DNA from: a virus
Length of the DNA: 64,000 bases
IMG/VR virus record: IMGVR_UViG_3300042302_000394
Location: 143,814-207,813 of that record
Strand: one strand, 5' to 3'
The notes below the pieces were generated by a model, which saw only the letters and a program-made list of their open reading frames with translations, did not search any database and was not told the DNA's origin. Below are positions 5,200 to 63,472 of this stretch, piece by piece. Position 1 is the first letter of the stretch; each line of letters starts with the position of its first letter. Both the position numbers and the translations under genes were made by a program.

Positions 5200-5603
5200 T
5201 ATAGTGGCTTGCTTCTTAGATAGTTAGGATATCGTTTATTGAAGTTACGCATAATAACTCCTGCTATCTCATGTGCTTGATTTTCATGCGGACTACCTGT
5301 TTCACCACTAGTATCCGTTAGCTCACCTTGCTGATCTTGTTTGTAATGAACCAGCTCGTGTGCCACTGTTCTCAGTATGTCAACAGGGTGACGGTTCTTT
5401 AAGGCAACTAACAGCATATTCTCACTCGGCACGTATGCACCAAAGCTGGGCTGCTCGCCTGTATTTAGATCCGGGGCAAACTGCATCTTAGGCAACTGAT
5501 CTATTTCAAGGATCTCCATAGCTAGAGGTAGAAACTTTTGAAACATTTCCACAACGTTGGCATTTTCCTCTGCGCCTTCAACAATAAACTGACGTGCTCT
5601 CAT
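5199..5603 (-). CDS. Putative zinc metallopeptidase, 134 aa
   Basis: The protein carries HEXXH in VAHELVHYKQDQQG (~83-96), with a downstream Glu-rich helix (GSPHENQAHEIAG) that could supply the third zinc ligand. This fits small zincin-like proteases common in T4-like phages. The N-terminus MRARQFIVEG resembles a capsid-targeting peptide, with IVE fitting the IxE prohead-protease rule, so it may be packaged in the head. The start is leaderless: the TAAATA motif ends 5 nt before the ATG. Its stop lies inside the terminator at 5174-5199. Substrate unknown. Confidence 0.82.
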   Translation of the reverse strand: MRARQFIVEGAEENANVVEMFQKFLPLAMEILEIDQLPKMQFAPDLNTGEQPSFGAYVPSENMLLVALKNRHPVDILRTVAHELVHYKQDQQGELTDTSGETGSPHENQAHEIAGVIMRNFNKRYPNYLRSKPL

Positions 5604-54579: not shown

Positions 54580-54617
54580 GTTGTATTTTGAACACAGATC
54601 ATTTGGAGGGTCTTTGG

Positions 54618-54646
54618 TTGACTGATTGGTAAAACCTTGCTATAAT
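54618..54646 (+). promoter_or_regulatory. Early promoter with GGTAAAACC spacer motif
   Basis: TTGACT, 17 nt (GATTGGTAAAACCTTGC), TATAAT. The ATG follows after only 5 nt. Confidence 0.85.
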
Positions 54647-54651
54647 ACACT

Positions 54652-54990
54652 ATGACGACACAAACAGTAACCCGTAAGAAGCGTGTAGACCGCAATCATA
54701 TCATCTATGAGCTTGTGGTCAACGGCAAGAACTACATTGGCGTCACAGCTAAGACAGAGAGCACTGTGAACAAGAGTGTTTTGAGTCGTGCCGCTAAACA
54801 CTTCTATCGTGCCAAGACTGAGACTAAGAACTGGCTGCTCTGTGCTGAGTTGCGCACACTGAGCGACAAGAGCGAGATTGAAGTATACGTGCATGAAGTT
54901 ATACGAGGCAAGGCAGAAGCCCACAAGCGTGAAGTAGAGATCCGCAGAATGGTTAAGCCTGTTTTAAATACAGACGTTCGTGGGGACTAA
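54652..54990 (+). CDS. GIY-YIG-like domain protein, 112 aa, leaderless
   Basis: IIYELVVNGKNYIGVTAKTE is a GIY-YIG-type strand pair. A helix with Arg (LSRAAKHFYRA) follows, then EAHKREVEIRRMVKPVLNTD, placing the catalytic-type Glu and the LNTDVRG end seen in this nuclease family. It may be a stand-alone nuclease or a homing-type remnant. No ribosome-binding site exists: the start codon is the expected transcription start. Confidence 0.72.
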   Translation: MTTQTVTRKKRVDRNHIIYELVVNGKNYIGVTAKTESTVNKSVLSRAAKHFYRAKTETKNWLLCAELRTLSDKSEIEVYVHEVIRGKAEAHKREVEIRRMVKPVLNTDVRGD

Positions 54991-55009
54991 GTGTCACTTC
55001 AAGTAACAC

Positions 55010-55038
55010 TTGACAAGTTGGTAAAACCGTGTTATAAT
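55010..55038 (+). promoter_or_regulatory. Early promoter with GGTAAAACC spacer motif
   Basis: TTGACA, 17 nt (AGTTGGTAAAACCGTGT), TATAAT. Confidence 0.88.
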
Positions 55039-55061
55039 TGACACTTACACACTAAGGAGCA

Positions 55062-55340
55062 ATGATGAGTTATACACTATACATCTACAAAGCAGATCGT
55101 CGTACAAAGACCGGAGAGCGCTTGTTCTCTACTACAGTTTGGCCCGTAGCGGATGACAATGCCATGCGCCGCACTGTAGCGGACTTGTTCCATTTGTACA
55201 GGCCAGAAGACGGCTTCCGCTTCGACTGGACTCCCAGCATGAAGACTGTTAAGAACTTGATGACTGGGGCAATGGTTGAGATCGCACACGACACTCCCCG
55301 CAGTTGCGATCCGTCAAGCGAACTCTACTGGAGCATGTGA
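55062..55340 (+). CDS. Hypothetical early protein, 92 aa
   Basis: The product (MSYTLYIYKADRRTKTGERL, then ADLFHLYRPEDGFRFDWTPS) is an alpha/beta protein of a type often seen in T4-like phage early regions; no function is known. AAGGAGC precedes two tandem ATGs (55062, 55065). The stop TGA shares its A with the next ATG. Confidence 0.75.
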   Translation: MMSYTLYIYKADRRTKTGERLFSTTVWPVADDNAMRRTVADLFHLYRPEDGFRFDWTPSMKTVKNLMTGAMVEIAHDTPRSCDPSSELYWSM

Positions 55341-55501
55341 TGAAGAACGAAATTGAACGTTTGAACTTTGTGATCTGGGCCAAGGATCGATTCCCGGGCT
55401 TTACCACCAATCACGAACAATGGACCAAGGCCAATCGGGCATGGCGGGCTGTGGCTCGCAAAAACCCAATGGTTGACAAGGTTATCGGTTTTACCGTATA
55501 A
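55340..55501 (+). CDS. Small early protein, 53 aa
   Basis: The product (MKNEIERLNFVIWAKDRFPG to MVDKVIGFTV) is helical and basic, Trp-rich. It is coupled to the upstream gene by a 1-nt overlap. The promoter of the next gene lies inside its 3' end, and its stop codon sits in that promoter's -10 box. Confidence 0.68.
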   Translation: MKNEIERLNFVIWAKDRFPGFTTNHEQWTKANRAWRAVARKNPMVDKVIGFTV

Positions 55502-55502
55502 T
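55473..55502 (+). promoter_or_regulatory. Early promoter with inverted spacer motif
   Basis: TTGACA, 18-nt spacer with GGTTTTACC (the reverse complement of GGTAAAACC), TATAAT. It overlaps the end of the 53-aa gene. Confidence 0.8.
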
Positions 55503-55528
55503 ATACACTTACACACAAAGGAGCTGAT

Positions 55529-55801
55529 ATGTCCGTTCAATCTATCAACAATGAGATTCTTGCAGGCAACTTCACTAACGATCAACTGACCAGCATCATC
55601 GACGCTGTGAAATTTGCCCGAGCACGCCTTGCAGAGAAGACCAAACGCTCTGTCACGCTGGGCAGTGCTGTGAAGTTCACTAGCACTAAAACAGGCATCA
55701 CTATGCAGGGTGTCGTAGACAAGATCGCGATCAAATACGTAACAGTTCGTACTAACCAGGGCCTGTGGAGGGTGCCTGCAAATATGTTAGAAACCGCTTG
55801 A
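55529..55801 (+). CDS. Conserved early protein with SH3/KOW-like C-terminus, 90 aa
   Basis: The N-terminal half is helical (TNDQLTSIIDAVKFARARLA). The C-terminal half (VTLGSAVKFTSTKTGITMQG, IAIKYVTVRTNQGLWRVPAN) has the strand pattern of a small beta-barrel (KOW/SH3-like), a fold often used to bind nucleic acid. Related proteins occur in T4-like phages; function unknown. The TGA stop is part of the next -35 box. Confidence 0.75.
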   Translation: MSVQSINNEILAGNFTNDQLTSIIDAVKFARARLAEKTKRSVTLGSAVKFTSTKTGITMQGVVDKIAIKYVTVRTNQGLWRVPANMLETA

Positions 55802-55826
55802 CACTTTGGTAAAACCGTGTTATAAT
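55798..55826 (+). promoter_or_regulatory. Early promoter with GGTAAAACC spacer motif
   Basis: TTGACA, 17 nt (CTTTGGTAAAACCGTGT), TATAAT; the -35 contains the stop codon of the previous gene. Confidence 0.88.
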
Positions 55827-55852
55827 ACATACTTGTTTAACAGGAGAAGACG

Positions 55853-56209
55853 ATGACTGTAGTGTATAAAGCAGGTGAGCAGACCTTTAAGGCCGTTGAG
55901 TTGTTGTTTGGCAAGCGCGAACTGGTCAATGCCGTTGTAGAGCAAGTACTGATCAGCCAGACAGAAGCTTTCATTGAGATGATCATGGACGGGCAAGAGG
56001 ACATGTCGCGCAATGGGATCAACGAAACCCTGCGTGGCGTTAAAGACAGCGCCACTGACTTCATTGGCGATATGATGGGCGACCTCGAAAGCATGATCAG
56101 AGAGCGTCTCAAGCAGGTCAACTACGGCGCGGCTGTGACGGGTATTAAGTACGATCTCGCTGGCGACGTTACAGATATTGAGGTCGATGTGTCTGTGGGC
56201 GTTGAATAA
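55853..56209 (+). CDS. Hypothetical early protein, 118 aa
   Basis: The protein is helical with an acidic middle (AFIEMIMDGQEDMSRNGINE, ATDFIGDMMGDLESMIRERL) and a beta-type C-terminus ending DVSVGVE. I do not recognise it. CAGGAGA lies 7 nt upstream of the ATG. Confidence 0.72.
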   Translation: MTVVYKAGEQTFKAVELLFGKRELVNAVVEQVLISQTEAFIEMIMDGQEDMSRNGINETLRGVKDSATDFIGDMMGDLESMIRERLKQVNYGAAVTGIKYDLAGDVTDIEVDVSVGVE

Positions 56210-56246
56210 CCCTTCGGTTGACAGGGTTGGTAAAACCTGTTATAAT
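56208..56246 (+). promoter_or_regulatory. Nested terminator and early promoter
   Basis: AACCCT/AGGGTT (56208-56213/56223-56228) forms a hairpin whose loop and 3' arm contain TTGACA (56218-56223). A 17-nt spacer with GGTAAAACC and TATAAT (56241-56246) follow. Confidence 0.8.
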
Positions 56247-56271
56247 ACATACATCGCAACAAGGAGCTGAT

Positions 56272-56502
56272 ATGCGCAAGTACACTACGAAGCTGTTAGA
56301 GATGATGGATGAGGGTTTGATCTCAGCAGAAGCTGTGGCAGAGATGGCATTGGCCTACATGAGCGAGGACGATGTTAAAGACATGTGCCGTGCTAACGAC
56401 ATCCTGGACGAAGAGGATGAGGACACCATTGTTGAAGAAGACGAGGAGTGGACTCCCGACAATGCAGACTTCTGCGATCCCGGCTCACGTCACCACTATT
56501 GA
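56272..56502 (+). CDS. Acidic early protein, 76 aa
   Basis: The helical N-terminus (KYTTKLLEMMDEGLISAEAV) is followed by a highly acidic tail (ILDEEDEDTIVEEDEEWTPD). The acidity could mimic DNA, but no evidence beyond charge supports that. Start set by AAGGAGC. Confidence 0.73.
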   Translation: MRKYTTKLLEMMDEGLISAEAVAEMALAYMSEDDVKDMCRANDILDEEDEDTIVEEDEEWTPDNADFCDPGSRHHY

Positions 56503-56511
56503 AAGGCAACT

Positions 56512-56892
56512 ATGCGATACTACGATGAACTGGCAACTTACGAGCGCGATGGCTTTACTGTGATCGTAGACAAGAGCTACGAAGACCTGAACCCACGTGA
56601 TTGCTTTGACTTTGATAGTGAAGAAGAAGTTAGCAAGATGTGTAAAGACATCGACAATGGCAACTTGGATTGGTTCATGTTGCGAGTGCGTGTAATGGTT
56701 GACAGCCTTGAGATGGGTTCGCACTACCTGGGCGGATGTCTGTACAAGGATGCTCGCGAAGTACTGACAGACGGCACCGCAGAGGACTGCATCGGCGAAG
56801 CACTGCACGAAGCCAAACGCGAAGTCTACAAGTACAAACAAAAATTCGCTGAGTTGAGCGACATGGTTGATCGTGAAGGTGTTGATGTTTAA
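56512..56892 (+). CDS. Hypothetical early protein, 126 aa
   Basis: The product (MRYYDELATYERDGFTVIVD, then FDFDSEEEVSKMCKDIDNGN) is alpha/beta and acidic, with a conserved-looking YxDLxPRDCFD segment. No known function. GAAAGG lies upstream. It overlaps the membrane-protein gene by 8 nt. Confidence 0.73.
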   Translation: MRYYDELATYERDGFTVIVDKSYEDLNPRDCFDFDSEEEVSKMCKDIDNGNLDWFMLRVRVMVDSLEMGSHYLGGCLYKDAREVLTDGTAEDCIGEALHEAKREVYKYKQKFAELSDMVDREGVDV

Positions 56893-57115
56893 TAAGAATG
56901 AAGTACTACAGTGGGTGGGTGCCGTGGCGATCATTGCCGGGCACGTACTCAACGCAATAGGTCCCAGTGTCTATCCTTACAATATTATCGCGTTCGCTGT
57001 GGGCACTGTAGCGTTCTTGGCATGGGCTATCCGTGTGGCAAATAAGCCACAGGCTGTGGTCAACGTTGTATCATTAGCCATAGGCATTGTAGGGTTATAC
57101 AAAGCATTTGGTTGA
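56885..57115 (+). CDS. Small membrane protein, 76 aa, three TM segments
   Basis: Hydrophobic segments lie at ~8-27 (VLQWVGAVAIIAGHVLNAIG), ~33-52 (IIAFAVGTVAFLAWAIRVAN) and ~58-74 (VNVVSLAIGIVGLYKAF). The ATG at 56885 is preferred because it has GAAGGT upstream. The TGA stop is part of the next promoter's -35 box. It probably sits in the host inner membrane; role unknown. Confidence 0.72.
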   Translation: MFNKNEVLQWVGAVAIIAGHVLNAIGPSVYPYNIIAFAVGTVAFLAWAIRVANKPQAVVNVVSLAIGIVGLYKAFG

Positions 57116-57140
57116 CAAGTTGGTAAAACCTTGCTATAAT
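57112..57140 (+). promoter_or_regulatory. Early promoter of candidate structured RNA
   Basis: TTGACA, 17 nt (AGTTGGTAAAACCTTGC), TATAAT. No start codon with a frame follows, only the structured region 57147-57326. Confidence 0.88.
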
Positions 57141-57146
57141 AAGGCA

Positions 57147-57326
57147 TAGTAAGAAATAAACAGGGTTACCTAGTCCGTTAGGGCCCACAGCAAGCGAAGA
57201 GTTCCGACGGGGACAGGTTGCTGTGGGGCATGAAGGCAGTTGTAAACGAAAGTTTACACGAGTTGCTGACGGGGAACTAGGGCGTAATGTTTGGCACACC
57301 GAACGTTAGAGACGGACTAACGGGTA
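57147..57326 (+). ncRNA. Candidate structured RNA, ~180 nt
   Basis: CCTAGTCC/GGAACTAGG (57169-57176/57273-57281, one bulge) closes the fold. CCCACAGCAA/TTGCTGTGGG (57184-57193/57218-57227) is a 10-bp helix capped by GTTCC/GGGAC. TGTAAAC-GAAA-GTTTACA (57241-57258) is a 7-bp GNRA hairpin. GTTTGG-CACA-CCGAAC (57289-57304) and CGTTAG-N7-CTAACG (57304-57322) end it. The last loop (ACGGA) can pair with TCCGT (57174-57178), a possible pseudoknot or switch that competes with the closing helix. There is no ORF. It is not a family I recognise. Confidence 0.68.
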
Positions 57327-57327
57327 G

Positions 57328-57356
57328 TTGACAATCCCCTGTTTTCTTGCTATAAT
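57328..57356 (+). promoter_or_regulatory. Early promoter
   Basis: TTGACA, 17-nt spacer, TATAAT; the spacer lacks GGTAAAACC. Confidence 0.88.
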
Positions 57357-57382
57357 ACACACTTACACACTAAGGAGCAAAG

Positions 57383-57652
57383 ATGAAAGCACTAGAGAAG
57401 TTTATCGAGCAGAAGAATCACTGGAACAGTTTCTTCAAAGGCGAGCAATACGAGATCCAGAGTGCCAAGGGTCGCCAGCGTATCGCAGACATGATCGATG
57501 CCGCATTGAGTCCGGAGAACTTGACCTGTGATGGCGAACTGAGCCGCACAGAAGTCAATCGTCGCTACAAGGAACTGATGACTGCGGCAAAGCAGTTGAA
57601 GAAGTTGGACCCGGCTGTTTCTTTTTACGAGTGGGAAGAGGAGATCATCTAA
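57383..57652 (+). CDS. Hypothetical early protein, 89 aa
   Basis: All-helical, charged protein (MKALEKFIEQKNHWNSFFKG to FYEWEEEII) without a recognised domain. AAGGAGC precedes the ATG. Its TAA shares one base with the next ATG, so the genes are coupled. Confidence 0.74.
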   Translation: MKALEKFIEQKNHWNSFFKGEQYEIQSAKGRQRIADMIDAALSPENLTCDGELSRTEVNRRYKELMTAAKQLKKLDPAVSFYEWEEEII

Positions 57653-57864
57653 TGAAAGCAATGGTTACAACTGTTCTCCGTCAGGAGATTGAAGTGCCCG
57701 AGGGCACGGATCGTCAAAGTGTGCTGGAGTTTCTGGCAGAGAACCAAAGCTTCACAGATGCGTTCTGTGGTGTTAGCGATATGACACAACGGTTCCGCAT
57801 TGTTGATATCAGTGTGGTGGAAGAAGAGATTACTGAACTTGGCGAGGAGAGCTACGATGCCTAA
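57652..57864 (+). CDS. Small early protein, 70 aa
   Basis: The product (MKAMVTTVLRQEIEVPEGTD to LGEESYDA) has a beta-alpha-beta pattern. Function unknown. It overlaps the DUF1281-like gene by 8 nt; an earlier in-frame ATG inside the previous gene was not used. Confidence 0.7.
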   Translation: MKAMVTTVLRQEIEVPEGTDRQSVLEFLAENQSFTDAFCGVSDMTQRFRIVDISVVEEEITELGEESYDA

Positions 57865-58405
57865 TTGGTGTTCAAACGGTATTACACTGCGTCACGCAGA
57901 CCCCCAAATGATCCAGCGGGCCGCCAAGGCTCTGCAAGAGGGCAAGTTCCTGCAGGAGTTCATTCCTTGCCCTGCCGAACTGCTGGACACTGTGGCTCAG
58001 ATGGGCACCAACGATGCTGAAAAAGCTAACCGAGAGAAGTACGGATACAGTTCCTGGTATGACTTCAATGTGGCCAACTGGGGCACCAAGTGGGATGTAG
58101 AGTCTAGCAATGTAGAGATCGAGGATGCTAACACTGTCACAGCTGGCTTCGACAGTGCCTGGGCACCACCCATCCGTGCATATGAGCAGTTGATGGACTT
58201 GGGCTTTGATCTAGTGGCCTTCTACTACGAGCCTGGCATGCAGTTTGTGGGCAAGTGGGACAACGGTAGTGACGACTGCTGTGAGTACGGTGGCGCAACT
58301 GCTGACACGGTGCGTGACATGATCGGCGAGGAGTTAGACGACTACTTCTGCATCAGCGAGAGTATGGCTGACTGGGAAGAAGAGAACCAAGAGGATCAAG
58401 AATAA
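57857..58405 (+). CDS. Api92/YubB-like (DUF1281) protein, 182 aa
   Basis: It begins MPNWCSNGITLRH and includes WYDFNVANWGTKWD and FDSAWAPPIRAYEQLMDLGF, the signature of the DUF1281/Api92-like family with a ferredoxin-like fold, common on plasmids and phages. Function is unknown. The start is fixed by the conserved MPNWCSN; a longer frame upstream overlaps the previous gene. Confidence 0.88.
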   Translation: MPNWCSNGITLRHADPQMIQRAAKALQEGKFLQEFIPCPAELLDTVAQMGTNDAEKANREKYGYSSWYDFNVANWGTKWDVESSNVEIEDANTVTAGFDSAWAPPIRAYEQLMDLGFDLVAFYYEPGMQFVGKWDNGSDDCCEYGGATADTVRDMIGEELDDYFCISESMADWEEENQEDQE

Positions 58406-58429
58406 CCCTACAGCCCCCAGGGGCTTTGG

Positions 58430-58458
58430 TTGCTCGTTTTACAAAACAGTGTTATAAT
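58430..58458 (+). promoter_or_regulatory. Early promoter (TTGCTC type)
   Basis: TTGCTC, 17 nt, TATAAT. A hairpin AGCCCC/GGGGCT (~58412-58425) just upstream probably terminates the previous gene. Confidence 0.78.
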
Positions 58459-58488
58459 ACACACATGTTAAAACAAACAGGAACCAAA

Positions 58489-58665
58489 ATGTTAAAAATG
58501 TATACACTGCAACGCAATAACACTTATCTAATTGCAGGAAAATTTGTGCCGCTAGCAGTAGCACAAAAAAATAAAGCAAGCATGTACAAATATAAAACTA
58601 TGCTCGCACATGCAACACAAAGCATTAAGCAAGCAGGAGACACTGTAGCAGTGTTTACTTTATAA
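58489..58665 (+). CDS. Small basic early protein, 58 aa
   Basis: The product is MLKMYTLQRNNTYLIAGKFV to GDTVAVFTL. AGGAA lies 5 nt upstream of the ATG at 58489; ATGs at 58465 and 58498 are alternatives. The gene is more AT-rich than its neighbours. Function unknown. Confidence 0.68.
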   Translation: MLKMYTLQRNNTYLIAGKFVPLAVAQKNKASMYKYKTMLAHATQSIKQAGDTVAVFTL

Positions 58666-58689
58666 CCCTACAGCACATAGGGTCTTTGG

Positions 58690-58718
58690 TTGCCCTGTGT
58701 ACCTTTTTGCGTTATAAT
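58690..58718 (+). promoter_or_regulatory. Early promoter (TTGCCC type)
   Basis: TTGCCC, 17 nt, TATAAT. The hairpin ACCCT/AGGGT followed by CTTTGG lies just upstream. Confidence 0.78.
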
Positions 58719-58748
58719 ACACACATGTTAAACGAAAAGGAAATTAAA

Positions 58749-59135
58749 ATGCAAACATACACTACACTGCACACAAACGGACTCGGCTACTGGAGCCGCA
58801 CAGCTAAAGCTGTAGACGTTACGAAACTAGACTTGCAGTTCATTAACGACGAGAGAGACTTCGGCGAGCTGTGTGTGTACTTTACAGCAGACAGCTGGGA
58901 CGTTAACACAATGGGACTAATTTACACAGACAAGCAGTTTAAAGCAGAACTGCGTGAGTACTTGGTTACGTTGGGCTTTACGCAAGCAGAAGCAAACGAC
59001 GTGGAGTACAGCGAGCAGGGTATGCAGGGCGACAATTACGTGTCGTGCGATGTAGGAGATAAGTTTATTGCGGGCTTAATGCGTTTGGACCCCCAGCATG
59101 TTAACGCTGTGATTGCGGAGTGCGAGGGCATTTAA
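58749..59135 (+). CDS. Hypothetical early protein, 128 aa
   Basis: Alpha/beta protein (MQTYTTLHTNGLGYWSRTAK, TADSWDVNTMGLIYTDKQFK) with an acidic centre. A type common in T4-like early regions; function unknown. AAAGGAAA lies upstream of the chosen ATG. Confidence 0.74.
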   Translation: MQTYTTLHTNGLGYWSRTAKAVDVTKLDLQFINDERDFGELCVYFTADSWDVNTMGLIYTDKQFKAELREYLVTLGFTQAEANDVEYSEQGMQGDNYVSCDVGDKFIAGLMRLDPQHVNAVIAECEGI

Positions 59136-59161
59136 TAGTACAGTAAAGTGGAAGGGCATTG

Positions 59162-59190
59162 TTGACAGCAGTGCCCTTTTGCGTTATAAT
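59162..59190 (+). promoter_or_regulatory. Early promoter
   Basis: TTGACA, 17-nt spacer, TATAAT. Confidence 0.87.
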
Positions 59191-59217
59191 ACACACATAC
59201 ACTAAACAGGAGCAGAC

Positions 59218-59373
59218 ATGAAGCGTACAGATGTTGAAGAGCTGTTGGGAAAGATGGAACAGTTTGCGGACTTCCTGTTTGCACAGGGCAAGAACTGTGC
59301 AGGCAATGAGCTGTTGGGCTTTATTGAGACCGCAGATGCTGTGTTAGAGGACTGCGAGTTGGAGGCGGAATGA
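59218..59373 (+). CDS. Small early protein, 51 aa
   Basis: The product (MKRTDVEELLGKMEQFADFL to EDCELEAE) is helical and acidic. ACAGGAGC precedes the ATG. It overlaps the next gene (ATGA). Function unknown. Confidence 0.72.
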   Translation: MKRTDVEELLGKMEQFADFLFAQGKNCAGNELLGFIETADAVLEDCELEAE

Positions 59374-59594
59374 TTACAGCGGACAAACTCAAACTCCTCA
59401 CCAACATGCCAGCAGTTATGCTAGAGCAGGCACTGCCCGTCAAAGGCCGACCCAAACTCAAGACAGCCCGCTTCCTGGGCATCACCAACGGGCACGAGTT
59501 CTGCTACCTTGTGACAGACACTGATGACGGTGCGGGCAAACTGTTCCTCAAGTATGACCCTACAGCGGATAAGGTTTCTGCTACGCTGGCTTGA
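59370..59594 (+). CDS. Hypothetical early protein, 74 aa
   Basis: Alpha/beta protein (MITADKLKLLTNMPAVMLEQ, FLGITNGHEFCYLVTDTDDG). Coupled to the previous gene. Its TGA stop lies in the next -35 box. Function unknown. Confidence 0.73.
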   Translation: MITADKLKLLTNMPAVMLEQALPVKGRPKLKTARFLGITNGHEFCYLVTDTDDGAGKLFLKYDPTADKVSATLA

Positions 59595-59619
59595 CAAGTT
59601 GGCAAAATCTTGTTATAAT
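59591..59619 (+). promoter_or_regulatory. Early promoter with GGCAAAATC variant
   Basis: TTGACA, 17 nt (AGTTGGCAAAATCTTGT), TATAAT. Confidence 0.85.
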
Positions 59620-59644
59620 ACATACATCGCAACAAGGAGTAGAC

Positions 59645-59908
59645 ATGCTTACAGTCAATCAAACTACCCGCTCTTACACTGGCAAGCCCGGCTGCATGTG
59701 CGGATGCAATGGCACTTACAACGAGGGCGAACGTGCTCGTAAGATGGCTATAACTGCTCTGCTTAAAAACCCTGCTGTGCGCTACGACAGCTGGAACGAT
59801 GGGCAAGAGGGCGCTGTGTTTGTTGTTACAGCTACCCGCAATCGTGTACTTTATCTTACAGCAGAGGGCGTGAAAGCTGTTGAAGCTATGGGCGTAAAGC
59901 CCGAGTAA
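59645..59908 (+). CDS. Early protein with CMCGC motif, 87 aa
   Basis: GKPGCMCGCNGTYNEGERAR (~13-32) is a Cys-rich motif seen in small phage proteins of unknown function. The C-terminus is beta-rich (GAVFVVTATRNRVLYLTAEG). The three Cys are too few to fix a metal site. AAGGAG precedes the ATG. Confidence 0.75.
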   Translation: MLTVNQTTRSYTGKPGCMCGCNGTYNEGERARKMAITALLKNPAVRYDSWNDGQEGAVFVVTATRNRVLYLTAEGVKAVEAMGVKPE

Positions 59909-59924
59909 GCTGTAGGGTCTTTGG

Positions 59925-59953
59925 TTGACAGGGTAGCCAAACAGTGTTATAAT
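59925..59953 (+). promoter_or_regulatory. Early promoter
   Basis: TTGACA, 17-nt spacer, TATAAT. Confidence 0.86.
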
Positions 59954-59980
59954 ACACACATACACAACAAAGGAGCTGAT

Positions 59981-60223
59981 ATGAATATGTCTTACTGCAT
60001 GTTTGAGAACACAATGAATGATCTGCGTCACTGCGTGGAAGCAATGGACAATGCGGACTCTATGAGCGAGCTGGACTTGAGCCGCACTGAGAAAGCAGCT
60101 TATGAGTATATGCGCGAGCTGTGCCAAAACTTCCTGGACTGTGCAGAGCGCCTGGAGCAAGAGGAAGCTGACGGACAGCCCGACGAAGCGCAAGAGTGGG
60201 CAGACTTTGATCCCGATTGCTGA
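59981..60223 (+). CDS. Acidic helical early protein, 80 aa
   Basis: The product (MNMSYCMFENTMNDLRHCVE to EWADFDPDC) is helical and acidic, without a known domain. AAAGGAGC precedes the ATG. Confidence 0.72.
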   Translation: MNMSYCMFENTMNDLRHCVEAMDNADSMSELDLSRTEKAAYEYMRELCQNFLDCAERLEQEEADGQPDEAQEWADFDPDC

Positions 60224-60228
60224 AATGT

Positions 60229-60305
60229 CAACCCCTGCCATTAGACCCTGCAACACGCCTGGGTACTTCGCAGGGGTTGACAGTTTGGTAAAACCTTGCT
60301 ATAAT
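60229..60305 (+). promoter_or_regulatory. Nested 10-bp hairpin and early promoter
   Basis: CAACCCCTGC/GCAGGGGTTG (60229-60238/60270-60279) is a perfect 10-bp inverted repeat whose 3' arm runs into TTGACA (60277-60282). A 17-nt spacer with TGGTAAAACC and TATAAT (60300-60305) follow. Confidence 0.82.
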
Positions 60306-60336
60306 TAACACTTACACAAACACACTGGAGCACACA

Positions 60337-60750
60337 ATGGGTACACGAAGCACTATCGCACTTGAGTTTGCAGATGGCACAGTACAGCAAGTCTACTGTC
60401 ACTGGGACGGCTACCTGGCACACAACGGCCAGCTCTTGCTCAAGCACTACAGCGATCCGTTCAAACTGCGTGACTTGATTGACTTGGGCGGTTTCTCAAG
60501 CCTGTGCGACTCTGTTGAGGAAACTAAACAGGGTGCCTACACACAACGCGGTGAAGAGTTGTCGATTGAGAAATACAAAGACATTGAGGACTATTACAAA
60601 AATGTCAGCGGCGAGGAGTACGACTACATCCTCAGCATGAACTGGAAAGGCAAGGCTCAGTGGTATGTTCGTCACTACGGCACACAAGAGAATTGGATTC
60701 CGTTAGAACTGGCATTTGAACAAGAGAAGCAAGAGGAGGAAATGGAATGA
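60337..60750 (+). CDS. Conserved phage early protein (MGTRSTIA family), 137 aa
   Basis: It begins MGTRSTIALEFADGTVQQVY and contains CHWDGYLAHNGQLLLKHYSD, a family I know from many T4-like and related phages; function unknown. The C-terminus is acidic (FEQEKQEEEME). It overlaps the next gene by 4 nt (ATGA). Confidence 0.85.
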   Translation: MGTRSTIALEFADGTVQQVYCHWDGYLAHNGQLLLKHYSDPFKLRDLIDLGGFSSLCDSVEETKQGAYTQRGEELSIEKYKDIEDYYKNVSGEEYDYILSMNWKGKAQWYVRHYGTQENWIPLELAFEQEKQEEEME

Positions 60751-60926
60751 GCAAGATCGCTGAACTGGCATACGACATTGAGCAACTGTACATCGATGGC
60801 ATGAGTGCCAGAATGATTGCACTGACATTGGATTGCCCCGTGGAGATGGTCTACGGTTGGATTGAAGGCAACAGTGTTGCTGATACGCCACAAGAGGAGG
60901 AAGTCTATTCGCCATATTTTGGTTGA
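60747..60926 (+). CDS. Helix-turn-helix-like small protein, 59 aa
   Basis: IEQLYIDGMSARMIALTLDC, then PVEMVYGWIEG, reads as a short helix-turn-helix of the kind that binds DNA. It could be a regulator of the early promoters (inference). The TGA stop lies in the next -35 box. Confidence 0.72.
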   Translation: MSKIAELAYDIEQLYIDGMSARMIALTLDCPVEMVYGWIEGNSVADTPQEEEVYSPYFG

Positions 60927-60951
60927 CAGTTCCTCCAAAAGAGGTTATAAT
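60923..60951 (+). promoter_or_regulatory. Early promoter with CCTC/GAGG inverted repeat
   Basis: TTGACA, 17 nt (GTTCCTCCAAAAGAGGT), TATAAT. Here the spacer holds CCTC-N5-GAGG instead of GGTAAAACC. The 5' leader also has a hairpin ACAGC/GCTGT (~60962-60976). Confidence 0.85.
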
Positions 60952-61008
60952 TAATACATGGACAGCGCGGTGCTGTTCGTACACACAGACAAACACAAAG
61001 GAAATTTT

Positions 61009-61428
61009 ATGTCTAAATCTTTTACCCATGCTGGCGTTTCTAAACAAGATGGCCAATTCAAAGTTCGTTTTGCCAATGACGCACTGCGTACCAAGGTGCT
61101 GATCAAGAACGGTCATACCGATATTGATATCATCGAGCTGAAACACGCTATGACCAAAGAGGACGCTGTTGCTTATCTCATGGAGATCGACTTTGCCACT
61201 ACCAACGGCAAGACCAATGCTGATGTGTTGGCTGCACTGGCTGCTGAGATCGACAAGCGTAGCGAAGTGCCTGCTAAAGAGGCTAAGGTTGCCAAAGCTG
61301 CAAAGGCCAAGCCTACTATGAAGGCTATCGAAGCCAAGGTGGCTGCTAAGAAGGCAGAAGCCAAACCCACTCCTACTAAAGCCCAAGTGATTGCCCAGCT
61401 GGCTGACATGGAAGACGCCCCTTACTAA
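61009..61428 (+). CDS. Early protein with Ala/Lys-rich histone-H1-like tail, 139 aa
   Basis: The first ~90 residues are an alpha/beta domain (FKVRFANDALRTKVLIKNGH). The tail (~85-139) is Ala/Lys/Pro-rich (KVAKAAKAKPTMKAIEAKVA), like histone-H1-type bacterial DNA-binding tails, so it may bind DNA or RNA. AAAGGAAA precedes the ATG. Confidence 0.74.
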   Translation: MSKSFTHAGVSKQDGQFKVRFANDALRTKVLIKNGHTDIDIIELKHAMTKEDAVAYLMEIDFATTNGKTNADVLAALAAEIDKRSEVPAKEAKVAKAAKAKPTMKAIEAKVAAKKAEAKPTPTKAQVIAQLADMEDAPY

Positions 61429-61512
61429 GAATAACCCCTGCAGTGTGCGTAGAGGCAATGTCAATAAGTCCTCTTCGATAACATGTATAACGGGGTATTC
61501 AGAGAGAACACT

Positions 61513-61731
61513 ATGAGTAGATTAGATTATATTGGTCGTCCTTGGACGGCATTCGATCCGGAGAACAAGCAACACCGCAAATGGTTTGCAGAGTTCCAAA
61601 GGTCCGGTACTTGGGGTCGTTGCCCTGTTCGATTCATTGTTTCGGATCAGCACGGGGATTTGATTACCCTTATCCAGCGTAAACTGATCGGACATTATGT
61701 CGATCGTGAATTTGGCAAAATTAGTGCTTGA
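61513..61731 (+). CDS. Small early protein, 72 aa
   Basis: The product is MSRLDYIGRPWTAFDPENKQ to VDREFGKISA. I chose 61513 over 61483 because homologous-looking sequence begins there and AGAGAGAA lies upstream. Function unknown. The TGA stop overlaps the next -35. Confidence 0.68.
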   Translation: MSRLDYIGRPWTAFDPENKQHRKWFAEFQRSGTWGRCPVRFIVSDQHGDLITLIQRKLIGHYVDREFGKISA

Positions 61732-61756
61732 TTTACCAGTCAGTCTTCTCTATAAT
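61728..61756 (+). promoter_or_regulatory. Early promoter (TTGATT type)
   Basis: TTGATT, 17 nt, TATAAT; the -35 contains the stop codon of the previous gene. Confidence 0.75.
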
Positions 61757-61796
61757 AGATAATAACTGCACAGCAGTATCTAACAAGGAAGACAAA

Positions 61797-62066
61797 ATGA
61801 AAACGATTAATCCAGAAACCAAAGCCGGGAAACTATTCACAGCATTGAAAGCAGGCGAGGCATTGACTCCTGCACAGGCTGCAAAGCGTTTCGGTATCAA
61901 GAATGTCACAGCTGAAGTCAGCCGTATTCGTCAAAGCGGTTTCGCAGTGTATGCAAACAACCGCAAAGCCGGTAACGGTGTTGAAGTGACCGAGTATGTT
62001 ATGGGTCAACCAAGCCGCAAGATCATTGCCGCAGGTTACAAGGCTATGGCTCTCGGCCTTGCGTAA
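61797..62066 (+). CDS. Winged-helix-like DNA-binding protein, 89 aa
   Basis: KAGKLFTALKAGEALTPAQA, AKRFGIKNVTAEVSRIRQSG and GFAVYANNRK form the pattern of a winged helix-turn-helix domain. Members occur in many T4-like phages. It is a plausible regulator of the early region. AAGGAAG precedes the ATG. Confidence 0.8.
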   Translation: MKTINPETKAGKLFTALKAGEALTPAQAAKRFGIKNVTAEVSRIRQSGFAVYANNRKAGNGVEVTEYVMGQPSRKIIAAGYKAMALGLA

Positions 62067-62087
62067 GTAGAGAGTTCGCTCCGAAGT

Positions 62088-62155
62088 CCTGGGGGTAGTG
62101 TCCCAGGCAAACCCCCGAGCCCTGCCACGCTGTGAAGCTGTTGCGGGGCTCACCT
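62088..62155 (+). terminator. Two hairpins, probable terminator
   Basis: CCTGGG/CCCAGG (62088-62093/62102-62107) and a 9-bp GC-rich stem GAGCCCTGC/GCGGGGCTC (62117-62125/62143-62151), followed by ACCTTTT. Confidence 0.72.
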
Positions 62156-62185
62156 TTTGTGGCAAAAATACAACACCAAAAGAGG

Positions 62186-62214
62186 TTGACAGAGTGGTAA
62201 AACCTTGCTATAAT
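62186..62214 (+). promoter_or_regulatory. Early promoter with GGTAAAACC spacer motif
   Basis: TTGACA, 17 nt (GAGTGGTAAAACCTTGC), TATAAT. The ATG follows after 6 nt. Confidence 0.88.
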
Positions 62215-62220
62215 ACATAC

Positions 62221-62493
62221 ATGAACTTAAACAATGTCGACGAAGAATGGTTCCGCAGAGATCGAAGCTTTCGTATCATAGGCAATGATCAAGTAGGCTA
62301 TCATGTCCGAGCCTGTGGAAACCATCGTGTTCTCAGCGATAGAGAAGAGCCCTTAAAGACCCTACAAGACGCAAGGAATTGGTTGACAGAATACTATCCC
62401 GGTGTTATAATACATACATCGCAACAAGGAGCAGTCAATGAGCTACATTGTTTTCAAACACAACAAGGAATACGGTCCACGCAAAGGACTTGA
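62221..62493 (+). CDS. Hypothetical early protein, 90 aa, leaderless
   Basis: The product is MNLNNVDEEWFRRDRSFRII to RSTQRT. No ribosome-binding site fits between the -10 box and the ATG. The next gene's promoter and start lie inside its 3' third, which encodes LTEYYPGVIIHTSQQG, so the real protein may end earlier in evolution or the overlap is tolerated. Function unknown. Confidence 0.6.
   Translation: MNLNNVDEEWFRRDRSFRIIGNDQVGYHVRACGNHRVLSDREEPLKTLQDARNWLTEYYPGVIIHTSQQGAVNELHCFQTQQGIRSTQRT
62383..62411 (+). promoter_or_regulatory. Early promoter inside the 62221 gene
   Basis: TTGACA, 17-nt spacer, TATAAT, then the shared leader ACATACATCGCAACAAGGAG. Confidence 0.86.
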
Positions 62494-62641
62494 AGGACCC
62501 TTCCACTATCCCAATGGCCGTGTTGCCTACTACGATCCTAAGGAAGGCCGCTACTGGGATCCACGGACTGACTTCTACCTCGAGACTGAGGAAGCCGCTG
62601 AACTCCAGAACTCGATCTTCGGAGTGCTGAAACGTGCTTAA
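62438..62641 (+). CDS. Small early protein, 67 aa
   Basis: The product is MSYIVFKHNKEYGPRKGLEG to FGVLKRA, rich in Tyr and Pro (GRVAYYDPKEGRYWDPRTDF). Function unknown. It overlaps the next gene by 8 nt. Confidence 0.72.
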   Translation: MSYIVFKHNKEYGPRKGLEGPFHYPNGRVAYYDPKEGRYWDPRTDFYLETEEAAELQNSIFGVLKRA

Positions 62642-62819
62642 GATACATCCAGACCTTAACCCACTAGAGGTCATCCTAGTCGAAGAGGACATGGCCCGCA
62701 AGGGAATCACACACTACACAATGACTCCGGGCAATGACTGCATCTGGGTCTACTACGGTTCTATGAACCTTTACTACATCTTCAACGAGGGTAAGATACA
62801 TGACATCCAAATCGATTAA
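62634..62819 (+). CDS. Small early protein, 61 aa
   Basis: The product (MLKIHPDLNPLEVILVEEDM to IHDIQID) has an alpha/beta pattern. It overlaps both neighbours (8 and 20 nt). Function unknown. Confidence 0.7.
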   Translation: MLKIHPDLNPLEVILVEEDMARKGITHYTMTPGNDCIWVYYGSMNLYYIFNEGKIHDIQID

Positions 62820-63009
62820 AGTCTATCAGGAAACCACACAGTGGACAGACAGCAACGCCGGTAACCATGTCTACATCTTCAACGAGCGGGTTACAGGTCG
62901 AAGTGCCACAGCTATTGCCTACATACCTGCGGGCACAGATCAGGTAAAGAAGTTCCGTACACCGCTCAAGCTGGATCTCAAAGGGCGAACATTTAAAGAG
63001 TTGACTTGA
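62800..63009 (+). CDS. Small early protein, 69 aa
   Basis: The product is MTSKSIKVYQETTQWTDSNA to GRTFKELT, beta-rich (HVYIFNERVTGRSATAIAYI). The stop lies in the spacer of the next promoter. Function unknown. Confidence 0.7.
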   Translation: MTSKSIKVYQETTQWTDSNAGNHVYIFNERVTGRSATAIAYIPAGTDQVKKFRTPLKLDLKGRTFKELT

Positions 63010-63029
63010 TAAATAATTGACTGTATAAT
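63001..63029 (+). promoter_or_regulatory. Early promoter, leaderless type
   Basis: TTGACT, 17 nt, TATAAT; the ATG at 63036 follows after 6 nt. Confidence 0.8.
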
Positions 63030-63035
63030 AGAACT

Positions 63036-63323
63036 ATGAAACGAATCCTTACTTCAATCGCACTGATCGCATCCTTGGGCACTGCACAGGCAGCTGGTCC
63101 AGAGGATGTCTTGCTGGGTATCATCCTAGGCGGATTCATAGGCAATTCAATGGCTAAACAACAGCCCGTTCAGCCTCCTGTAATCGTTCAACAACCTCCT
63201 GTGATCTACCAACCACAACCGCAGATCATCTACCAACCCTTGCCCCCACAGCCGGTATGCTACCATACTCCGGTCTATAACGGCTATGGTCAGTTCTTTG
63301 GCTGGCGCACTCACTGTAGATAA
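63036..63323 (+). CDS. Secreted Pro/Gln-rich protein, 95 aa
   Basis: A signal peptide (MKRILTSIALIASLGTAQA, cleavage after AQA) is followed by a glycine-zipper-like segment (LLGIILGGFIGNSMAK) and Pro/Gln-rich repeats (PPVIVQQPPVIYQPQPQIIY). It ends YHTPVYNGYGQFFGWRTHCR. It is probably exported to the periplasm or envelope. No ribosome-binding site: predicted leaderless. Confidence 0.76.
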   Translation: MKRILTSIALIASLGTAQAAGPEDVLLGIILGGFIGNSMAKQQPVQPPVIVQQPPVIYQPQPQIIYQPLPPQPVCYHTPVYNGYGQFFGWRTHCR

Positions 63324-63329
63324 AGATTC

Positions 63330-63404
63330 CTGGCCATAGTTCAATGGACAGAACATCTGCCTTCTAAGCAGTCAATCCAGGTTCGATTCCTGGTGGCCGG
63401 ACCA
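63330..63404 (+). tRNA. tRNA-Arg (anticodon TCT), CCA encoded
   Basis: The acceptor stem is CTGGCCA/TGGCCGG (one T-G pair). The D arm, the anticodon loop CTTCTAA and the T arm CCAGG-TTCGATT-CCTGG fold normally. The discriminator A and CCA are encoded. It reads AGA codons, which are often rare in proteobacterial hosts. Confidence 0.95.
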
Positions 63405-63407
63405 AAT

Positions 63408-63446
63408 AACCCTGCACTTGACAGGGTTTCTTTTTGATGTTATAAT
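63408..63446 (+). promoter_or_regulatory. Nested tRNA terminator and early promoter
   Basis: AACCCTG/CAGGGTT (63408-63414/63422-63428) followed by TTCTTTTT is an intrinsic terminator behind the tRNA. TTGACA (63418-63423) lies in its loop and 3' arm, 17 nt before TATAAT (63441-63446). Confidence 0.87.
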
Positions 63447-63472
63447 ACATACATCGCAACAAGGAGCACACA

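Follow-up and report, generated by a model that had tools for sequence, protein, structure and literature searches.

GOLLD and ROOL are structured RNAs of phages and prophages that are often found near tRNA islands and are described as having no known function; pull-downs have reportedly shown GOLLD bound to ribosomes (both as given in the accessible part of PMC12286853), which makes such a role plausible for a phage RNA that lies near tRNAs. Two small stable RNAs, rnaC and rnaD (species 1 and 2), lie in the tRNA cluster of phage T4 (annotation of NC_000866). In bacterial rRNA operons, the boxB-boxA leader and the leader-trailer helix have known roles, according to the available portion of PMC10250234. 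Here we describe a folded RNA of ∼190 nt, carried by large freshwater T4-like bacterial viruses, usually as one copy per genome, which is a new family by every search made here. The copy with which the analysis began (the query) lies in a stretch of 64,000 nucleotides (the window) at the end of a virus record of 207,813 bases (IMG/VR record IMGVR_UViG_3300042302_000394).

The initial annotation had placed a new structured RNA at 57147-57326, behind a strong promoter of its own. That such an RNA lies there is borne out by 97 aligned copies that share one covarying fold and by the lack of any Rfam match, but its extent had to be refined: the closing helix P0, in which AAACAGGG (57158-57165) pairs with CCCUGUUU (57337-57344), together with diverged homologues and covariation, sets the bounds at about 57158-57344 on the plus strand, as are all features of the window given below unless noted. 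The 3′ end of the RNA would therefore fall at ∼57344, within the promoter of the next gene (57328-57356), whose −35 element is in the 3′ part of the RNA; the 3′ strand of P0 overlaps the spacer of that promoter and is followed by a short U run. In L071, L075, and L085, as in the window, the promoter of the next gene also makes use of the final bases of the RNA gene. The next gene in the window (57383-57652) encodes an 89-aa protein, has its own promoter and ribosome-binding site, and is not a constant neighbor of the RNA across the family. Upstream of the RNA, the promoter at 57112-57140 is the sigma-70-type consensus that had been claimed (TTGACA-17-TATAAT, 12/12, with TG before the −10), with a predicted start at ∼57147, but it is not specific to the RNA. 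Perfect TTGACA-17-TATAAT promoters recur across 54600-63450 of the window, mostly ahead of small genes, and form an array to which it belongs; strict promoters ending in TATAATA number 11 in the window versus 0.06 expected. The stretch had also been said to hold no open reading frame, which is correct in that no plus-strand frame of at least 50 aa lies inside the RNA; two mechanically called frames nevertheless touch it, one on the minus strand (79 aa, 57060-57299) and one on the plus strand that starts at 57328, within the final 17 nt of the refined RNA. The fold was confirmed, with 57147-57326 folding at −64.5 kcal/mol (z = −5.09) and none of 200 shuffled sequences folding as well.

Homologues were collected by several routes. 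By blastn, close kin matched the RNA at 88-97%, and a short motif was shared with distant relatives; searches with flanking proteins added 124 loci, and a scan of IMG/VR with a 5′ motif provided loci that were taken from among the matches listed. Seventy full-length references were obtained, and 52 of them, of one subtype, were aligned without structure (alignment A1), analyzed with RNAalifold, and used to build the model R1. Left out of A1 were 12 sequences of subtype II and six others; among the 58 of subtype I, L098 is in A1, and L091, L145, L147, L156, L176, L190, and L224 are not. Of 100 motif loci, 96 gave an R1 match at E ≤10 (three of them as weak or short truncated pieces only). R1 also matched 16 in a further set of 18 motif loci and 35 of 45 loci recovered with two other motifs, and it gave a clear match in 20 of 94 flank-protein loci. 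The search pattern was present with no R1 match in L130, L187, L204, L217, L228, and L234 and in 10 of the 45 other-motif loci, and these were taken as chance occurrences. Subtype II sequences, which were outside the training of R1, scored ∼42-78 bits (E ∼1e-9 to 1e-20); the match in the query's own genome (96.5 bits) is by construction, because this copy sits in the model's alignment. Sequences fitted to R1 formed alignment A2, with 97 aligned rows from 96 loci; since L205 is a duplicate of L075 and L274 carries a tandem pair, these rows represent 96 sites on 95 virus contigs.

Both alignments support a common fold. In A1, 89.0% of cells are paired, and the covariation of 0.458 exceeds that of shuffled alignments (0.178; 0/500 as high) and of slid versions of the fold (at most 0.117); the corresponding values for A2 are 91.2%, 0.472, 0.153, and at most 0.096, the shuffle controls in each case ignoring the relatedness of the rows. 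Each of the 20 column pairs with the strongest covariation belongs to the fold. A1 was collected mostly by a fixed 5′ motif, and 10 of the 96 distinct A2 rows are without that motif. The search that the initial annotation had proposed, with a covariance model for covarying homologues in viral metagenomes, has thus been carried out and yielded clear copies in many virus contigs, in which the changes keep the helices.

In the family architecture, P0 closes the RNA, P1 and P2 open into a junction from which P3/P3b and P4 branch, and P5 and P6 make up a second arm. P0 covaries across the family. P1, in which CCUAGU (57169-57174) pairs with ACUAGG (57276-57281), contains the second strongest covarying pair; its fifth pair is C-G in 52, G-C in 34, A-U in 6, and U-A in 3 of 96 rows. 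P2, in which CCGUU (57175-57179) pairs with GACGG (57268-57272), also covaries, and its third pair is G-C in 79 and A-U in 17 of 96, with 100% of cells paired. The P3 arm (57184-57227), identified by fold and covariation, is built on the 10-bp helix that had been recognized in the lone sequence (57184-57193/57218-57227), and its cap P3b (57201-57205/57210-57214, loop GACG) includes the strongest covarying pair of all. The GAAA-capped 7-bp hairpin of the initial annotation is P4 (57241-57258), which is found by folding and covaries in the family; its alignment register in the query is shifted relative to the folded hairpin. The 3′ domain (57282-57336) consists of a conserved GUAAUG stretch, P5, which differs in one class of 3′ domains, and P6 (57304-57322), a hairpin of CGUUAG and CUAACG with the 7-nt loop AGACGGA that covaries in the family and whose stem is changed on both sides in L011, L017, and L098. 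The loop of P3 is GACG or GCCG in many copies, P4 is often GNRA-capped, and the loop of P6 is mostly AGACGUU or AGACGGU in the 77 rows where it is short. Three unpaired segments are conserved: UUA after P0, AUGAA between P3 and P4, and GUAAUG between P1 and P5. In subtype II, CACCA of P4 and UGGUG of P6 are complementary in 18 of 21 aligned rows (the complement is absent in L061, L298, and L299); this possible kissing contact, recognized by eye, is a lead only, because the two segments show no variation.

The closing helix originally drawn for the lone sequence is not that of the family, as homologues support P1 and P2 instead. The lone-sequence minimum of the query (−73.5 kcal/mol versus −45.4 for the family fold imposed on it) uses UCCGU (57174-57178) in its closing helix and was rejected as the family fold on the evidence of these homologues; a C-G to A-U replacement in L264 and L265 retains P1 and breaks the alternative CCUA/UAGG hairpin. 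Because the lone minimum lies so far below the imposed fold, the query may also adopt the other structure, and it is possible that this could still form in its clade (L001, L011, L012, L017, and L098). Since the two folds differ, the competing helix between the 3′ loop and 57174-57178 that had been postulated is physically possible in the query, and the ACGGA of the loop is indeed complementary to UCCGU. As a conserved switch, however, it was rejected: all five pairs are possible in just 24 of the 77 copies with a short P6 loop, a count that leaves out 19 rows with a longer loop. In the query P5 forms poorly, and its pairing is uncertain in the clade. The clade has no tRNA near the RNA and no extended closing helix, its P0 being 7-8 bp with little or no outward extension (scores 1.5-4).

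None of 4227 Rfam families, including RNase P RNA, tmRNA, tRNA, and YrlA, matched the query or the other members searched, consistent with the original view that this is not RNase P, tmRNA, or another recognized RNA. GOLLD and ROOL gave no match at gathering score, nor, when the query and nine other loci were searched, at E ≤10. Among isolated phages, blastn with the query returned nothing credible (best E 0.08 over 17% of the query), L135, L186, L229, L182, and L149 had no blastn match, and no match was found for one protein of the window. In bacterial and archaeal genomes (84,980 species), the 5′ motif yielded 18 stretches, the best of which scored 14.4 bits with R1, and R1 with stricter filters, run without a positive control, did not find the RNA in 369 and 198 bacterial genomes; a bacterial origin was rejected on these two results. 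A description of the RNA was not found in the open-access literature, including the accessible parts of PMC12286853, PMC2864571, and PMC10250234.

Among 32 large records, 28 had one clear copy each, one had a partial weak match, one had a weak match (12.8 bits), and two had none; the query's own record holds one copy. In G029 (364,554 bases) and G032, large relatives with no R1 match, the RNA is either lacking or more diverged. Tandem copies were seen in a single case (L274:94-282 and L274:320-513, minus strand). Carriers range up to 383 kb, and because gp23 was matched in 18 of 33 records (17 above the cut-off), many of them are T4-like; neither gp23 nor a match to the terminase model PF03237 was found in the query's own record, which is possibly a fragment.

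The RNA occurs in two settings, as a single gene after a strong promoter (the query) and in tRNA operons. When a promoter was required to score at least 10/12 within 120 nt and a tRNA to lie within 400 nt, the 97 rows comprised 29 with a promoter only, 26 with a tRNA only, 28 with both, and 14 with neither, L205 and L075 being one site that is counted twice in these and in the tRNA, promoter, and downstream-gene tallies. One of the 14 rows with neither is L205, and in ten of them, which have an extra element upstream, a promoter-like site can be seen by eye further upstream. Promoters by this definition precede 57 of 97 rows, as compared to 6.6% of random stretches, and end 15-25 nt before P0 in one group, 82-89 nt before it in another, and at other distances in a few. 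A tRNA lies within 400 nt in 54 of 97 rows, none such being present in this window, and all 141 tRNAs within that distance are on the same strand as the RNA. In 45 of the 54 rows, tRNA-Asp (24) or tRNA-Glu (21) is the closest; together these two make up 15% of the 647 tRNAs at those loci.

Where the promoter lies 80-90 nt upstream, the leader contains a boxA-like site (at least 9/12) in 20 of 20 cases (3.5% in shuffled sequence), preceded in 20 of 20 by a hairpin of at least 5 bp (shuffled, 17.5%); these 20 leaders are kin to each other and not independent. The boxA and hairpin leader is absent from the promoter setting of the query. P0 extends outward (score of at least 8) in 74 of 95 rows, as opposed to 5.7% of shuffled ones, with sequences that are unrelated between groups, and in many promoter copies the helix begins close to where transcription is expected to start. 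The genes downstream belong to 16 families among 39 rows (a 14-member cluster is inflated because its protein served as a search query), and the RNA is therefore not the leader of one gene.

The single copy, the lack of a fixed downstream gene, the closing helix, and the company of tRNAs argue for a stable RNA that acts in trans. Our preferred explanation, to which we assign a probability of roughly 0.6, is a stand-alone noncoding gene of large T4-like phages whose stable RNA would be excised and act in trans. The RNA would be made either from its own strong promoter or within a tRNA transcript, often with a ribosomal-RNA-type leader, and in tRNA transcripts the long closing helix may allow its release by host RNase III and other nucleases. 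Because no phage RNase III was found in 29 carrier records, excision would need a host enzyme. Once released, this single-copy RNA might act in trans, with the host translation or stable-RNA machinery as its most likely target. This target is speculative; the translation machinery is the first candidate, given the neighboring tRNAs and the signals of rRNA type, and it counts against this explanation that nothing links the RNA directly to ribosomes. Also against it are the lower-energy alternative fold of the query, the query clade's lack of a nearby tRNA and of an extended closing helix, and the 14 rows with neither a strong promoter nor a tRNA. A pairing of GGUUACC and GGUUCC with the 3′ end of 16S rRNA was considered and dropped, as the segments are short and in the wrong order for one duplex.

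Conserved loops might allow a different role in trans, in which the RNA would serve as a decoy or sponge that occupies a host RNA-binding protein or an RNA-cleaving defense enzyme (e.g., one that attacks tRNAs). GACG-type loops conserved on two arms, a single-copy gene often next to tRNAs, and strong sigma-70-type promoters would all suit a decoy, which we regard as possible though unlikely, the loops being unlike an anticodon loop. More ambitious, and in our estimation unlikely, is the proposal that giant phages carry a miniature rRNA-like operon (boxB-like hairpin, boxA, leader-trailer helix, and tRNA-Glu/Asp) and that the RNA enters host rRNA transcription and processing through it, remodeling or capturing ribosomes or assembly factors during infection.

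The put RNAs of phage HK022 are nascent phage RNAs that bind RNA polymerase and give terminator read-through. The present RNA could likewise act in cis, on the polymerase that makes it, for the benefit of a tRNA operon or of early genes; it often lies early in the transcript (15-25 nt behind the −10 in one setting, 82-89 nt in the other), and boxA-like antitermination signals adjoin it. One would then not expect one copy per genome despite many promoters, nor another promoter directly 3′ of the RNA, as in the window. In L182, L186, L270, L275, and L294, the RNA is inside the array, as shown by a tRNA 11-18 nt upstream of it, and the long closing helix suggests excision. We thus consider action in cis rather improbable.

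In some phages, other unrecognized structured elements adjoin the RNA. One of them, conserved and ∼90 nt long, is located upstream of or near it (L127, ∼5237-5337 on the minus strand; L171:5047-5161; also L129, L138, L150, L152, L199, L211, L264, L265, L280, and others). Its 19 distinct sequences have a consensus fold with a 3′ hairpin changed on both sides, no Rfam match was found in six loci, and it is possibly another new RNA. A further stretch, apparently structured and bearing a conserved CTTCCCAAAACC run, lies downstream of the RNA in L129, L143, and L219; it has no Rfam match in these loci, and that of L143 has blastn matches in 41 loci. At L162:6265-6783, near tRNAs and the RNA, ARAGORN calls a tmRNA with the tag ANDEKFLMAA, possibly a phage tmRNA. 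Such neighbors, and the shared habitat of phages with tRNA islands, would be expected if the RNA were one module in a larger RNA assembly comparable to the multimeric cages of GOLLD and ROOL. The neighboring elements are inconstant, however, P0 closes the RNA as a unit, there is no Rfam match to GOLLD or ROOL, and its ∼190 nt contrast with the >800 of many GOLLD members (accessible part of PMC12286853), all of which makes a module of this kind very improbable. A riboswitch-like leader of the following gene can be practically dismissed, for although a gene with a ribosome-binding site comes next in the window, that 89-aa gene has its own promoter, and elsewhere the RNA is followed by 16 different gene families or by tRNAs.

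A conserved single-copy RNA found among tRNAs and behind rRNA-type signals offers a handle on phage takeover of the host RNA and translation machinery. Giant phages bring large tRNA sets, and their further translation cargo is poorly known. The covariance model and the conserved loops open this RNA to direct tests.

Of the systems to which the RNA may be compared, the HK022 put RNA is also a structured phage RNA near a promoter, but the new RNA is single-copy, occurs inside tRNA arrays as well, and has a processing-type closing helix. It differs from the Y RNA/Ro system in that none of 29 carrier records, possibly fragments, had a TROVE-domain protein, whereas the control genome, Deinobacterium, was matched. 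Like GOLLD and ROOL, it is phage-borne and found near tRNA islands (54 of 97 rows here); unlike them, it is ∼190 nt long, has another fold, matches no Rfam family, and is not known to form multimers. The likeness to a bacterial rRNA operon, as outlined in the available portion of PMC10250234, is seen in the tRNA-operon setting and consists of a hairpin, a boxA-like site, and a long closing helix, followed by tRNAs. The extended P0 resembles the leader-trailer helix of pre-16S and pre-23S rRNA, an extension that the query clade is without, and the enclosed RNA differs in being ∼190 nt long with no match to an Rfam rRNA. Nearest in kind are rnaC and rnaD of T4, by place and not by sequence or model: part of the new family likewise lies among tRNAs, but R1 run without filters on the T4 tRNA region scored at best 10.2 bits, outside both genes, and at most 1.2 bits inside them. 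By kind, the RNA is another orphan structured phage RNA, and its new feature is the rRNA-type transcription and processing signals that accompany it.
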